Shown here: piece by piece, positions 11,351-45,028 of the stretch
Layout of the letters: each line of letters opens with the position of its first letter
How positions within the stretch are numbered: the stretch's first letter is position 1
Position numbers and translations under genes: made by a program
The notes under the pieces: model-generated
The model's database searches: none
What the model was told of the DNA's origin: nothing
The model's input: the letters and a program-made list of their open reading frames with translations, nothing else
From: Eubacterium sp.
Lineage (GTDB): Bacteria; Bacillota; Clostridia; Lachnospirales; Lachnospiraceae
Length of the DNA: 64,000 nt
Assembly: GCA_017433825.1 (NCBI GenBank)
Contig: JAFRGL010000001.1
Coordinates: 35,137-99,136, forward strand
Direction of reading: 5' to 3'

Positions 11351-11406
11351 AAAAAAAGGGCAAAGATGCTCTTCATACTGTTTGTATGAACAACACCCCT
11401 GCCTCC
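11351..11406 (-). promoter_or_regulatory. Attenuator in the purA leader, degenerate ANTAR-type module
   Basis: A terminator hairpin (CATAC/GTATG core, loop AAACA) ends in seven T on the minus strand (11351-11357). Overlapping its 5' side is a candidate hexaloop AGGGGU (A1, G4), closed only by C-G and two G-U pairs. Spacing from promoter to hairpin equals that of the good copies. Terminator well supported, ANTAR assignment weak. Confidence 0.45.
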
Positions 11407-11420
11407 TTTCGCCACAGAAT

Positions 11421-11449
11421 TTTATACGCTTGCGGCGGTCATTTGTCAA
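11421..11449 (-). promoter_or_regulatory. Promoter of purA-purB-pyrG
   Basis: Minus strand TTGACA (11444-11449), 17-bp spacer, TATAAA (11421-11426). Confidence 0.8.
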
Positions 11450-11465
11450 GAAAAGAGTTATGCCG

Positions 11466-11645
11466 TCAGTCCCAGACAGCCGTGCTGGGATTGCTCTCGT
11501 CCGTTAATTCGTCTTCCGGCGCCAGAAACGCTTTGTCTTCCTTCAGTTCTTCTTCTGTTTCCTCATTAATAAAGGTAAAGGCTTCCCTCTGATGTTCAAA
11601 TAAAGTCTGGCTGCATACCTCTTCATCCGTCATGGTCTTTTTCAT
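11466..11645 (-). CDS. Small acidic protein of unknown function, ANTAR-leader controlled
   Basis: A 59-aa protein, MKKTMTDEEV..STAVWD, with 18 Asp/Glu against 5 Lys/Arg. It has one cysteine (Cys11), no signal peptide and no membrane segment, and the middle (EETEEELKEDK) should be helical. I recognise no family. AAGGAGAAAAACC before the ATG is an excellent ribosome-binding site and fixes the start at codon 10 of the longer frame. It lies downstream of gdhA and has its own complete hexaloop/terminator leader, so it is regulated together with the nitrogen genes. A small regulator or inhibitor of a nitrogen enzyme is a reasonable but untested guess. Confidence 0.65.
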   Translation of the reverse strand: MKKTMTDEEVCSQTLFEHQREAFTFINEETEEELKEDKAFLAPEDELTDESNPSTAVWD

Positions 11646-11716
11646 GGTTTTTCTCCTTAAACATTCCGGCATAATGCCCTGAGTTATGTTCTTTTACAGT
11701 AAATGTCTTCTTTTTT

Positions 11717-11777
11717 CCCAAAAAGCAGGAGACGCCTTTTAAAGCCTGTAAAGCTTTAAAAGACGCCCTTGCCTTTT
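11717..11777 (-). promoter_or_regulatory. ANTAR-type antiterminator leader of the 59-aa gene
   Basis: On the minus strand AAAAGGC-[AAGGGC]-GTCTTTT (11758-11777) is a 7-bp stem with a hexaloop having A1 and G4. Its 3' arm is shared with a terminator stem of 15 bp (11731-11767, GGCGTC..TTTAAAGC paired to GCTTTAAAAGGCGTC). The T run (11717-11721 region) is about eight bases beyond the stem. TATAAA at 11790-11795 could be a -10 box but the -35 is poor, so read-through from gdhA may supply the transcript. Confidence 0.75.
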
Positions 11778-11823
11778 GTGAATTATTGGTTTATATCCAG
11801 TCCGAATTTCTCGAACCCGGTTA

Positions 11824-13158
11824 TCATACAATGCCCTGGGCCAGCATGGCGTCCGCCACTTTTTCAAAGCCCGCGATATTGGCGCCTGCCACGTAGTTGC
11901 CTTCCATTCCGTAGCGTTTCGCCGCGTCATCGATATGGTGGTAAAGGTCGACCATGATGGCTTTCAGCTTGCAGTCCGCCTCTTCAAAGGTCCAGTGCAG
12001 CCTCTCCGAGTTCTGGGACATTTCCAGGGCGGAGGTGGCTACGCCGCCAGCATTGGCCGCCTTGCCCGGCAGGAAGAGCACGCCGTGCTCCTGCAGGTAT
12101 TTGAAGGCTTCCGGTGTGTCCGGCATGTTGGCGCCTTCCGCAACTGCAAGGACGCCGTTTTCCACCAGAATCTTCGCATCTTCGATGCCCAGCTCGTTCT
12201 GGGTGGCGCAGGGAAGTGCAATGTCGCATTTAATCTGCCATACGCCCCTGCCTTCATGGTATTCGCTGTCCGGACGGTATTTCTTGTATTCGGTAAGCCG
12301 TGCCCTGTTGACTTCCTTGATTTCCTTCAAGGCTTTCAGATCAATGCCTTCCGGGTCATAAACCCAGCCTGTGGAATCGGAACAGGTCACCACCTTCGCG
12401 CCCATCTGCTGGGCTTTTTCTATGGCGTAAATGGCAACGTTACCGGCTCCGGACACCACTACCGTCTTGCCTGCCATGTCATAGCCGTGGCTCTTCAGCA
12501 TTTCTTCCACGATGTACAGCAGGCCGTAGCCGGTTGCCTCGGTACGAACCAGGGAGCCGCCGTAGGAAAGGCCCTTGCCGGTAAGCACGCCTTCGAACAG
12601 GCCGCGGAGCTTTTTGTACTGGCCGAACATGTAGCCGATCTCCCTGCCGCCTACGCCGATATCACCGGCAGGAACGTCGGTGTCCGCACCGATGTATTTG
12701 GACAGCTCGGTCATGAAATTCTGGCAGAAGCTCATGATTTCCCGGTCGGTTTTGCCCTTGGGATCGAAATCCGAACCTCCCTTGCCGCCGCCGATGGGAA
12801 GACCGGTCAGCGAGTTCTTGAAAATCTGCTCAAAACCCAGGAATTTGATAATGCCGATGTTGACCGACGGATGGAAACGAAGGCCGCCCTTGTAAGGTCC
12901 GATGGCGCTGTTGAACTGTACACGGTAGCCGGTATTTACATGAACCTGGCCGTGACGGTCAATCCACGGCACCCGGAATTTAATCTGCCGTTCAGGATTT
13001 ACCAGTCTTTCCAGTATGGCGTCCCTGCGGTAGGCTTCCTCGTTTTTGTCCACGATCACCCTTAAGGATTCCAAAACCTCCCGTGCTGCCTGATGAAATT
13101 CCGGCTCATTCGGGTTTTCTCTGATTACGCGTTCCATGATTTCGTCTACGTATGACAT
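11824..13158 (-). CDS. gdhA: Glutamate dehydrogenase, NADP-type hexameric
   Basis: A 444-aa enzyme that makes glutamate from 2-oxoglutarate and ammonia. Substrate-binding [11 protein letters not shown] is at about residues 85-95. The catalytic lysine lies in [16 protein letters not shown]. The dinucleotide fold is [21 protein letters not shown]. The sequence is like the small hexameric NADPH enzymes of clostridia and enterics. It is monocistronic or followed by the 59-aa gene, behind a strong promoter and an ANTAR-type attenuator. Its presence with two glutamine synthetases and a glutamate synthase gives both the high- and low-ammonia routes. Confidence 0.95.
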
Positions 13159-13192
13159 GTCTTTTTCTCCTTTAAACCAGATAATTCACAAT

Positions 13193-43222: not shown

Positions 43223-43223
43223 A

Positions 43224-43251
43224 AAACAGGAGTCGGCAACGTCTCCTGTTT
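43224..43251 (+). terminator. Intrinsic terminator near the right end of the element
   Basis: AAACAGGAG (43224-43232) pairs with CTCCTGTTT (43243-43251), T-rich 3' end. Confidence 0.55.
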
Positions 43252-43306
43252 ACTGCAGAGTTATAAAAAATCGTTATTTGTACTCATTTTGTACTCAAAC
43301 AGACAG

Positions 43307-43349
43307 AAAAATCCCCGGAAGACCCTATAAACAAGGGCTTTCTGGGGAT
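43307..43349 (-). terminator. Terminator of guaA
   Basis: ATCCCC (43344-43349 side) and GGGGAT close an imperfect stem with an inner GCCCT/AGGG part, followed on the minus strand by TTTTTC (43307-43311). Loop sequence resembles the terminator at 38323-38375. Confidence 0.6.
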
Positions 43350-43356
43350 AATGCTT

Positions 43357-44889
43357 TTATTCCCACTCCACCGTCGCGGGCGGTTTTGAAGTGATGTCGT
43401 AAACCACCCGGGAAATGCCGGGAACTTCATTGGTGATGCGCACAGAAGCCTTTTCCAGAATCTCATAAGGAATCCGTGCCGACTTTGCCGTCATGAAATC
43501 ATCGGTAACCACGGCCCTTAAGGCAACTGTACAACCGTAGGTCCTGGCATCACCCATGACGCCTACGCTTCTCGTATCCGTCAGTACCGCGAAATACTGG
43601 TCCGGCCGGTCCTCCGCCGGAAGCGTGTCCGCCTCTTCCCGGAAGATGGCATCCGCCTCCTGCAGCAGGAGCACCTTCTCCGCTGTCACCTCTCCAAGCA
43701 CCCTTACCGCCAGGCCAGGGCCGGGGAAAGGCTGCCGCCATACCAGTTCCTTCGGAAGGCCCAGAAGCTCACCGGTCCTTCGTACCTCATCCTTGAACAA
43801 ATCCCGCAGCGGCTCTGCGATGGCGGAAAAGGTCATTCTTTCCGGCAGGCCGCCCACATTGTGGTGGCTTTTGATTACGGCGGAGTCACCCCTGCCGCTT
43901 TCTATGACGTCCGGATAAATGGTCCCCTGGGCCAGGACGTCGATTTCCCCCAGTTTTTTCGCCTCTTCTTCAAATACCCGGATGAATTCTTCCCCGATGA
44001 TTTTTCATTTTTTCTCCGGCTCCGTCACACCGGCAAGCTTTGAAAAGAATCTTTCCTGCACATTGACCCGGATGAGGTTCAGGCCGAAATCCTTAAAGGT
44101 CTGTTCCACGAAATCCCCTTCGCCTTTGCGCAGAAGGCCGTGGTCCACAAAGACGCAGACCAGGTTCTCCCCGACGGCCTTGTGCAGCAATGCGGCCGCA
44201 ACGGAAGAATCCACCCCGCCGGAAAGCGCCAGCAGGACTTTCTTTCCCGCCAGCTCCTTACTGTATCTGTCAATCGTCTGCTGTACAAAGCCTTCTGTCT
44301 GCCAGTCCTGTGAGCACCCGCAGATCTGAAGCAGAAAGTTGGAAAGGATCCGTTTCCCGTATTCGGTATGGGTTACCTCCGGATGGAACTGCAGGCCGTA
44401 GACCCGCCTGATATCATCGGCAAAGGCCGCGTTTTCACAGTTTTCCGTTGCCGCAAGGCAGACGAAGGAATCCGGCAGGAGACTTACGGAATCCGTATGG
44501 CTCATCCAGCAGATGCTTTCTTCCGGCACCCCTTCGAACAGCTTATGGGCCGCTTTCCTGTGCAGGAGCGTTTTTCCGTATTCACTGCCGGTATCCGCCG
44601 GTGAAACCGTGCCTCCGCACAGATATGCCGCCAGCTGCGCACCGTAACAGATGCCTAAGACGGGAATGCCGCAGTACAGCACCTTCGGATCACAGACCGG
44701 CGCACCCTTTTCATAGACGCTGTTCGGTCCTCCGGTGAAAATAATGCCCTTATACTGCCTGTTCCTGATTTCATCCGCCGACAGCCTGTCATACGGCAGG
44801 ATTTCCGCGTAAATATTCTGCTCACGGACCCGGCGGGCAATCAGCTGGTTGTACTGGCCGCCGAAATCCAGTATCAGTATTTTTTCCAT
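43357..44889 (-). pseudogene. guaA: GMP synthase (glutamine hydrolysing), interrupted by one in-frame TGA
   Basis: A 511-codon frame for GMP synthase, which aminates XMP. The class I amidotransferase domain has LGICYGAQLAAYL (nucleophile) and LQFHPEVTHTEYG. The ATP pyrophosphatase loop is LLALSGGVDSSVAAALLHKAVG. The C-terminal dimerisation domain follows ([25 protein letters not shown], ending TVEWE). Codon 295 (44005-44007) is TGA where the family has Arg/Lys, in [24 protein letters not shown]. Reading frame and sequence are otherwise intact on both sides, so one base change (CGA or AGA to TGA) explains it. TGA is a normal stop in neighbouring genes. Start at MEKILILDFGG. The 3' end serves as attachment site for the adjacent element. 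Confidence 0.85.
43358..43368. repeat. Right attachment site at the guaA 3' end
   Basis: TATTCCCACTC covers the last codons and stop of guaA and is repeated directly at 38390-38400. The two copies bound about 5 kb. Confidence 0.6.
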
Positions 44890-44942
44890 AACGCCTCCGT
44901 AAAGGATAAAGGAAATCTTCATATTTTTCTTTCGACAGGCAG

Positions 44943-44989
44943 AAAAAAAGACGCCCCCCGACTTACCTGTCGAAAGACGCCCTTGCCTT
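44943..44989 (-). promoter_or_regulatory. ANTAR-type antiterminator leader of guaA
   Basis: Minus strand AAGGC-[AAGGGC]-GTCTT (44974-44989): 5-bp stem, hexaloop A1/G4. The terminator pairs GGCGTCTTTCGAC with GTCGGGGGGCGTC over 13 bp including G-U pairs, loop AGGTAA, followed by seven T (44943-44949). Confidence 0.85.
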
Positions 44990-44998
44990 ATGTAGTGT

Positions 44999-45028
44999 TT
45001 TATACACCAGGTGCGCGGCTTTTGTCAA
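44999..45028 (-). promoter_or_regulatory. Promoter of guaA
   Basis: Minus strand TTGACA (45023-45028), 18-bp spacer, TATAAA (44999-45004). Confidence 0.8.

Follow-up and report, generated by a model that had tools for sequence, protein, structure and literature searches.

How might a bacterium place the makers and the users of glutamine under a common control? The question is raised by a nitrogen locus within a 64,000-nucleotide stretch of a Eubacterium sp. genome (the window), for which a reading made from the sequence alone had proposed a regulon of seven similar leader modules read by an ANTAR protein.

Leader modules and genes of the locus

At the locus, glnA (glutamine synthetase; 13425..14636, + strand) has directly downstream of it, as the sequence-only reading had stated, an ANTAR gene (14700..15287, +), the one that was found in the assembly. 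On the minus strand lie the genes for a 59-aa acidic protein with no function assigned (11466..11645) and for the NADP glutamate dehydrogenase gdhA (11824..13158), the string glnN-amtB/PII-asnB-purC-purF-dapF-dapL-glmS (15588..27228), predicted to form one operon, carA-carB (32671..36935) and guaA (43357..44922, with one in-frame stop at 44005-44007), and on the plus strand the split glutamate synthase genes (gltB1, gltB2, FeS, oxidoreductase, GXGXG; 27536..32618). The leaders precede nitrogen genes and not, for the most part, genes unrelated to nitrogen, in keeping with the proposed regulon; purF, which had been counted in, belongs to it only as a member of the putative glnN operon.

The seven modules are real. 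Six are exact copies of AAGGCANNGNNGTCTT, a number reached in none of 100 shuffles (mean 0.33). A somewhat tighter pattern, AAGGCANNGNCGTCTT, matches the 2.6 Mb assembly without mismatch at these six places and nowhere else. The seventh, before gltB, reads ATAGGC[AAAGGA]GTCTGT around 27543 (+; loop in brackets). All seven hairpins carry an A1/G4 hexaloop, as had been claimed, and in computed folds the loop and 3' arm of each can alternatively form the 5' side of a terminator-like hairpin, the hexaloop hairpin and the intrinsic terminator being mutually exclusive. The minimal ANTAR motif of Walshe 2022, a single hexaloop hairpin with A1 and G4, is thereby present in every module.

Judged by eye, the strong promoter that had been assigned to each module is absent from two of the seven. 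The distal glnN leader (27335..27421, −) has TTGACA-18-TATAAT, AAAGGC[AAGGGC]GTCTTT and a terminator (E 3e-9 with the leader model R1); the gltB leader (27505..27600, +) has TTGACA-17-TATAAT, its hairpin at 27542-27559 and a terminator (E 2e-9); and the leaders of carAB (36960..37044, −) and guaA (44940..45028, −) join TTGACA-17-TATAAA and TTGACA-18-TATAAA, respectively, to a hexaloop AAGGGC and a terminator (E 5e-8 and 1e-7). The gdhA leader (13190..13290, −; E 8e-8) consists of TTGACA-17-TAAGGT, in which the -10 is by eye a weak match, AAAGGC[AATGGC]GTCTTT at 13235-13252, and a terminator. The proximal glnN module (27250..27298, −), with AAAGGC[AGAGAC]GTCTTT and a terminator, has no promoter of its own and sits in series (at 27282) behind the terminator of the distal module. 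The module before the 59-aa gene (11715..11776, −; AAAGGC[AAGGGC]GTCTTT and a terminator-like hairpin, E 0.01) lies at 11760, about 47 nt behind gdhA; it has no TTGACA and, judged by eye, no consensus promoter, and its U-tract is short, displaced and weak. A loop-blind detector of hexaloop plus terminator recovered five of the seven modules and missed the last two. No Rfam family matched the window at gathering thresholds, and glnA-ANTAR of the source genome has no such leader upstream and no R1 match. Searched with R1, the genome gave 26 matches at E ≤ 10; the six best outside the window (L117-L122, E 0.04-0.43) were read and rejected, as they show no proper hexaloop hairpin.

The ANTAR protein, of 195 aa, combines a pseudo-receiver with an ANTAR domain (PF03861, 51.9 bits vs a curated cut-off of 27.3). 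Asn59 stands where EutV-type receivers have the phospho-acceptor Asp, and among 77 relatives this position is Asn in 75 and Ser in 2; of 20 ANTARs drawn from other families of clostridia, 13 keep the Asp. The RNA-contact residues K149, E160 and M172 of EutV are kept, K143 and K147 are changed to Arg, Arg142 to Ile, and Tyr164 to His, which is also found at the aligned position of AmiR. The alignment table for the protein lists, apart from EutV and Rv1626, chiefly receiver domains. In leader-linked ANTAR groups, glnA precedes the ANTAR gene in all 138 testable loci.

Recurrence of the leaders and co-occurrence with ANTAR genes

Run on the window together with 78 related ANTAR loci, the loop-blind detector gave 105 matches, of which 79 had A1/G4 (20 shuffled sets: mean 0.7, maximum 3). 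The A1/G4 leaders of the related loci stand mainly before glnN, gltB and gdhA; genes were named against the 23 window proteins only, so that other genes register as 'none' (4/79), and four assignments below 40% identity (L133, L145, L146, L150) are uncertain. Many relatives have the gene string gltB-glnA-ANTAR behind a leader. Of the cultured gut relatives, Mediterraneibacter massiliensis (L066) has the leader of glnN, and M. glycyrrhizinilyticus (L063) those of glnN and gltB. Among relatives the leaders of glnN are homologous, as are those of gltB, and the matches are therefore not independent. Several different stem sequences bear the same loop, which recurs before different operons, and conservation in the loop extends beyond A1/G4 to A2, G5 and C6. 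Stem changes that keep pairing are seen in the leader alignments, two of the covariation counts in the first alignment being matched by one third of shuffles. When the detector was run with 4-bp stems on 54 ANTAR regions of the family, A1/G4 was found in 21/37 matches; several of the 21 look like chance occurrences and do not lie at nitrogen genes.

Leader matches extend over 18 family labels of a class-wide sample, and 20 regions of leader-bearing class genomes gave A1/G4 in 27/37 detector matches. Twenty loci from other clostridial families with an ANTAR gene and no match to a second leader model, R2, gave A1/G4 in 2/12, one of the two being a C[AAAGGC]G loop (L311). This scarcity indicates that not every glnA-ANTAR system has leaders of this class. 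The glutamine synthetase-ANTAR locus of Monoglobus (L340) has no A1/G4 hexaloop of at least 4 bp upstream of the glutamine synthetase gene.

Across the class-wide sample an ANTAR gene was detected in 37/38 leader-bearing genomes vs 145/291 genomes overall, a comparison for which Fisher tests ignore kinship, several of the leader-bearing genomes belonging to one genus. In the exception, G291, leaders are present and no ANTAR was detected. The leader models were trained on ANTAR-adjacent leaders, and the training of R2 included R1-found leaders of the same family sample, so that the class sample offers the more independent evidence. Within the family sample, R1 at E ≤ 0.01 separates the groups poorly (157/219 ANTAR-plus and 15/31 ANTAR-minus genomes have matches), and at E ≤ 1e-5 finds 33/219 vs 0/31, the best match among ANTAR-minus genomes having E 2.8e-5 in a genome that is 70% complete (G199). 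At the R2 threshold used, which was chosen after the R1 background had been seen, 160/219 ANTAR-plus genomes have no match. Since a glutamate synthase of the source type matches only 6/31 ANTAR-minus genomes, at identities of at most 46%, glnN leaders were chosen for a direct comparison, with one locus per genome (30/35 GSIII matches in ANTAR-minus genomes, 30/44 in 31 chosen ANTAR-plus genomes). An A1/G4 hexaloop with a terminator was found at 7/30 ANTAR-plus vs 1/30 ANTAR-minus glnN loci; with the terminator criterion dropped there was no contrast (9/30 vs 7/30). Before glnN of one ANTAR-minus genome (G062, L168) there is a pair of hexaloops.

An attenuation model and its alternatives

We consider it likely that the leaders are transcription-attenuation switches under the glnA-linked ANTAR protein. 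According to this model, the 5' end of the nascent RNA would first fold into the small hexaloop hairpin. With nothing bound, the stronger terminator hairpin would take up the loop and 3' arm, and transcription would end before the gene; with the ANTAR protein on the single A1/G4 hexaloop, the terminator would be blocked and the nitrogen or glutamine operon expressed. The model predicts where transcription starts, that the protein binds the leaders, which way control runs and that termination is the default state; the signal would presumably reach the pseudo-receiver by contact with a protein or ligand, possibly glutamine synthetase, rather than by phosphorylation. The model is based on sequence and computed folding, namely on leader anatomy, the mutual exclusivity of the two hairpins, promoter-proximal position, stem covariation, co-occurrence and gene context. 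Its ANTAR part, already put forward by the sequence-only reading, is well supported by the A1/G4 enrichment, the pairing-keeping stem changes, the co-occurrence and the location at nitrogen genes; the replacement of the EutV contacts Arg142 and Tyr164, and the leaders in the seemingly ANTAR-less G291, count against it. So do the hexaloop pair of the ANTAR-minus G062, the many ANTAR-plus genomes of the family with no R2 match, the poor separation by R1 at E ≤ 0.01 and the vanishing contrast at glnN loci when the terminator criterion is dropped. In eutP, moreover, induction is reported to have been abolished by deletion of the first hairpin (PMC3369931), and a single hexaloop may therefore be too little.

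An A1/G4 hexaloop over a terminator had been called the established ANTAR target. The hexaloop is indeed part of that target, but the design is not, the described target being a dual hairpin: the 2012 and 2021 definition has two A1/G4 hexaloops and a linker, and the leaders have one hexaloop each. In 60/62 leaders, 7-11 nt separate the end of the predicted promoter from the hairpin. The hairpin would start at around +1 to +5 of the transcript, so that no transcribed room is left for a first hairpin; computed folding has only about 20-30 nt transcribed before the terminator takes over. Among 97 leaders a second A1/G4 hexaloop is not in excess at 4-bp stems, and at 3-bp stems occurs downstream in 17, runner-up to G1/G4 in 37. 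A linker-limited scan for dual hexaloops found nothing in 40 class loci, two matches in 54 family loci and a single one in 78 relatives; all three were rejected as dual leaders by eye, since the first 'hairpin' falls in the promoter. The scan recovered none of five plasmid ANTAR loci used as controls (Paracoccus, unannotated; Roseibium, Sulfitobacter, Variovorax and Shinella), and the single-hexaloop claim therefore rests mainly on promoter position, together with the lack of enrichment. Of the four annotated controls, only Sulfitobacter shows two A1/G4 hexaloops; the linker between them, about 36 nt, is not within the limit of the scan. These failed controls and the 3-bp hexaloops leave some room for canonical dual leaders whose first hairpin, with a divergent loop, was missed, but given the promoter position and the 4-bp result we regard this as very unlikely. 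The leaders appear to use one hexaloop where described ANTAR targets have two.

That another RNA-binding protein reads the 5' hairpin, the ANTAR protein being merely a linked regulator of glnA, is improbable: the replaced contacts, G291 and the conservation of A2, G5 and C6 would fit such a protein, but pairing within the terminator stem involves bases of the loop as well, which could account for the additional conservation, and the 37/38 co-occurrence and the A1/G4 pair are best fitted by an ANTAR protein. A protein-free riboswitch for a small molecule such as glutamine or ammonium would suit the target genes and the mutually exclusive folds, but a hairpin of about 18 nt with a hexaloop is very small for an aptamer, and the lack of an Rfam match in the window and the co-occurrence with ANTAR genes speak against it as well, making it highly unlikely. 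Least plausible of all are plain promoter-proximal terminators or 5' hairpins that stabilise the mRNA, unregulated and inherited by homology; the kinship of the glnN and gltB leaders would allow for this, but not readily the recurrence of one loop on different stems and before different operons.

Returning to ANTAR-controlled attenuation, a wider proposal is distinctly more tentative: the leaders might define an ANTAR antitermination class of their own, working with a single 5'-terminal hexaloop and needing no first hairpin for pre-loading. Its regulators would be a pseudo-receiver ANTAR lineage that reads nitrogen status by direct contact with the adjacent glutamine synthetase, and in many Clostridia families the genes that make glutamine and those that use it would be under the joint control of this lineage.

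Relation to known ANTAR systems

Among the papers listed in a literature search, none had a title or abstract opening that dealt with single-hexaloop ANTAR leaders at nitrogen genes, with overlap possible in the supplementary tables of Ramesh or in Stutz 2007. NitR and dual-hairpin nitrogen regulons were known before. NitR of Clostridium saccharobutylicum (Stutz 2007) is described as an ANTAR antiterminator of GS/GOGAT genes, reported active under nitrogen limitation (PMC6316151), and a nitR antiterminator is mentioned elsewhere, as is an ANTAR gene that lies in a GS-GOGAT cluster of C. thermocellum (PMC4676874). The system predicted here likewise ties an ANTAR antiterminator to GS/GOGAT genes; beyond the targets reported for NitR, its leaders also stand before GSIII, amtB, asnB, carAB and guaA. 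Desulfotomaculum and Pelobacter have nitrogen regulons predicted with a dual-hairpin covariance model (PMC3369931), and share with our locus several nitrogen operons under predicted ANTAR leaders in one genome, whereas the single-hexaloop leaders fall outside the dual-hairpin definition. Glutamine synthetase as a sensor that controls a nitrogen regulator has a possible analogy in glutamine synthetase-TnrA of Bacillus subtilis (PMC6316151), although TnrA binds DNA, and the GlnA-ANTAR contact is hypothetical. If the model is true, nitrogen control would be explained for some members of a large Clostridia group, and GSIII, asnB, carAB and guaA would join the ANTAR regulons.

With EutV/eut, NasR/nasF and AmiR/amiE the leaders share the ANTAR domain of the proposed regulator, the A1/G4 hexaloop and a hairpin that overlaps an intrinsic terminator (Ramesh 2012, PMC3369931; Walshe 2022, PMC8934654), but those systems are described with two hexaloops and a linker, both hexaloops mattering in eutP, whereas each of our leaders has a single hexaloop, located where the transcript is predicted to begin. 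Walshe 2022 reports an extra single hexaloop in EutX, and stem-loops of M. tuberculosis that in some cases depart from the dual motif (PMC8934654). Such single or irregular hexaloops have thus been proposed as ANTAR sites before; from these, as described there, ours differ in being terminator-coupled leaders of a predicted nitrogen regulon. From the structure of EutV the same authors reduced the binding motif to one hexaloop, while holding that termination is prevented only when both hexaloops are contacted, and called for bioinformatic work on single motifs (PMC8934654). Searches built on the dual hairpin would miss the leaders described here, which, with one hexaloop each, offer a natural test of the dual-contact model: if they work, that model is not general.

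Leader modules of the window and its genome

The sequence-only reading had described seven modules, each with an A1/G4 hexaloop (A at loop position 1, G at position 4) and a terminator sharing the hairpin's 3' arm, and this description stands. Six are exact AAGGCANNGNNGTCTT sites in the window (100 shuffles gave a mean of 0.33 and never reached six), and a slightly narrower pattern with zero mismatches returned the identical six from the whole assembly (2.61 Mb, 25 contigs, an estimated 92.7% complete, with the window as part of contig 14); gltB is preceded by a seventh, divergent copy. 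Computed folds agree, giving each module a 5-6 bp hairpin of -3.1 to -4.1 kcal/mol and, in the longer RNA, a terminator hairpin of -21 to -34 kcal/mol that incorporates the 3' arm of the hexaloop hairpin and, as a rule, loop bases. Folded at successively greater lengths, the RNA has the hexaloop as its minimum-energy structure up to 37-51 nt, and the computed swap to the terminator occurs 4-12 nt ahead of the first TTTT. The strong promoter claimed for every module could not be upheld, since by eye those of the 59-aa gene and the proximal glnN, two of the seven, lack a good one; in 15300-27700 a simple scan gave two full 12-position promoter matches, at the glnN leader (minus strand) and the gltB leader (plus strand). 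In the proposed whole-genome model search, with R1, built from 60 leaders, five sites scored E <2e-7, every one inside the window, followed by the 59-aa module at E 0.01 and by six matches (E 0.04 and worse) that lack a proper hairpin.

Genes identified in the window are gdhA, purA, purB, glnA, glmS, dapL, dapF, purF, purC, asnB, an amtB/PII fusion, split glutamate synthase, carA, carB and guaA; the glnN product is GSIII, of 698 aa. The ammonium transporter with its fused PII domain (23352-25076, minus strand) is encoded beside glnN. A single in-frame stop at 44005-44007, with GuaA sequence on both sides, splits guaA (43357-44922, minus strand) and is either a sequencing error or a true lesion. 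The acidic 59-aa protein (11466-11645, minus strand), encoded between gdhA and purA downstream of a hexaloop module, recurs among loci with detector matches (see below) only in L032 (80% identity), the locus of the closest named relative of the ANTAR protein (84% identity). Just 3' of the ANTAR gene lies an inverted repeat (15361-15508) whose 16-nt arms match at 94% and which encloses a second inverted repeat; one of its arms, searched in the window, is single-copy.

Leaders in related loci

The window and 78 loci encoding relatives of its ANTAR protein were scanned with a detector that leaves the loop sequence free and asks for a hexaloop, a stem of 5 bp or more and a terminator overlapping the 3' arm of that stem. 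The detector recovered five of the seven window modules, and 79 of its 105 matches, from 42 loci including the window, were A1/G4; 20 shuffled sets gave means of 9.7 matches and 0.7 A1/G4 (maximum 3). The modules lie mostly before nitrogen genes, as had been supposed: the first recognised gene within 1,500 nt, with 23 window proteins as reference, was glnN in 30, gltB in 28, gdhA in 11, glnA in 2, amtB, purA, carA and guaA in one each and none in 4, while 22 of the other 26 matches had no gene recognised by that reference. When 250 family genomes were searched in full, the best-scoring 29 loci of other genomes had as best next-gene match glnN (15), gltB (7), asnB (4), gdhA, glnA and dapF (one each), at below 40% identity in four. 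Within 420 nt 5' of glnA, 54 family genomes hold 16 C[AANGGY]G hairpins against 0.43 expected from the remainder of the same DNA. One genome (locus L323, G275) has a purA-like gene (59% identity) among split glutamate synthase genes.

After one match (L045, loop ATCGCT) was dropped, 62 of 78 leaders carry a promoter of the form TTGAC / TA.... with 17-18 nt spacing, and in 60 of these 62 the hairpin starts 7-11 nt past the -10, which would place it at about +1 to +5, the start site being inferred from the promoter. Stems vary (AAAGGC/GTCTTT, ATGAGC/GTTCAT, TAAAGC/GCTTTG, GAAC/GTTC, ACAGC/GCTGT) under loops that are as a rule AANGGY. In the first alignment (60 leaders), for which the closing pair was no selection criterion, that pair is C-G in 60/60. 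The leaders of both alignments had been selected for pairing itself: in the first, none of 500 shuffles came up to the leaders in percentage paired, covariation score or cells changed on both sides, and 170 and 163 did so in two further covariation counts; in the broader one (76 leaders, most chosen with C-G) 6 shuffles did so in one of five measures and none in the other four.

With a 4-bp stem, a further A1/G4 hexaloop lies upstream in 3 of 97 unique leaders and downstream in 6, no more often than other loop types; with a 3-bp stem the counts are 6 upstream and 17 downstream, the downstream figure ranking behind G1/G4 at 37. A scan for dual hexaloops recovered 0/5 control loci, so the case for a single hexaloop rests first on promoter position. 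At L168, in a genome (G062) with no detectable ANTAR gene, two tandem A1/G4 hexaloops precede glnN, about 150-180 nt 5' of the GSIII match; they may be the remnant of a dual leader or have arisen by chance.

Co-occurrence with ANTAR genes

ANTAR genes are present in 219 of 250 family genomes. R1 at E <= 0.01, where matches include promoter-like background, hit 157/219 genomes with ANTAR and 15/31 without, and at E <= 1e-5 33/219 versus 0/31. R2, from 76 leaders, gave 59/219 versus 0/31 at E <= 3e-4 (Fisher 1.8e-4), a threshold chosen after the R1 background was known. In a class-wide sample (n=291), 37 of the 38 genomes with a leader match have ANTAR versus 108 of 253 others (Fisher 1e-11). 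The lone exception, G291, has no ANTAR match above the cut-off; its hexaloop leader (L330, G291:C65:1-7000) stands in an assembly 97% complete and 6% contaminated. A leader lies within 15 kb of ANTAR in 15 of the 34 genomes with both coordinates listed. At glnN loci, one per genome, an A1/G4 hexaloop with terminator occurs in 7/30 ANTAR-positive versus 1/30 ANTAR-negative genomes; hexaloops alone do not differ (9/30 versus 7/30).

Proposed mechanism and known systems

Most likely, the single hexaloop would be bound by the ANTAR protein upon emerging from the polymerase and the terminator thereby blocked. The receiver has no phospho-Asp, and contact or a ligand is therefore the probable route of the signal, with glutamine synthetase the obvious candidate by synteny alone. 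NitR reportedly induces GS/GOGAT genes when nitrogen is limiting (PMC6316151). Users of glutamine (carAB, guaA, purF, asnB) are among the targets here, a set that may fit a switch for growth on ammonia better than a response to starvation alone.

Nitrogen regulons and a glnA cluster are already known to be under ANTAR control. A literature search, mostly of titles and abstract starts with subscription papers little covered, found no single 5'-terminal hexaloop class with such a pseudo-receiver ANTAR lineage, and a 2022 structure paper leaves single-hexaloop sites an open question (PMC8934654). ANTAR targets as defined in PMC3369931 and PMC8164766 are dual, comprising two hairpins, whereas the leaders of the window appear to have one hexaloop, at the predicted 5' end of the transcript.
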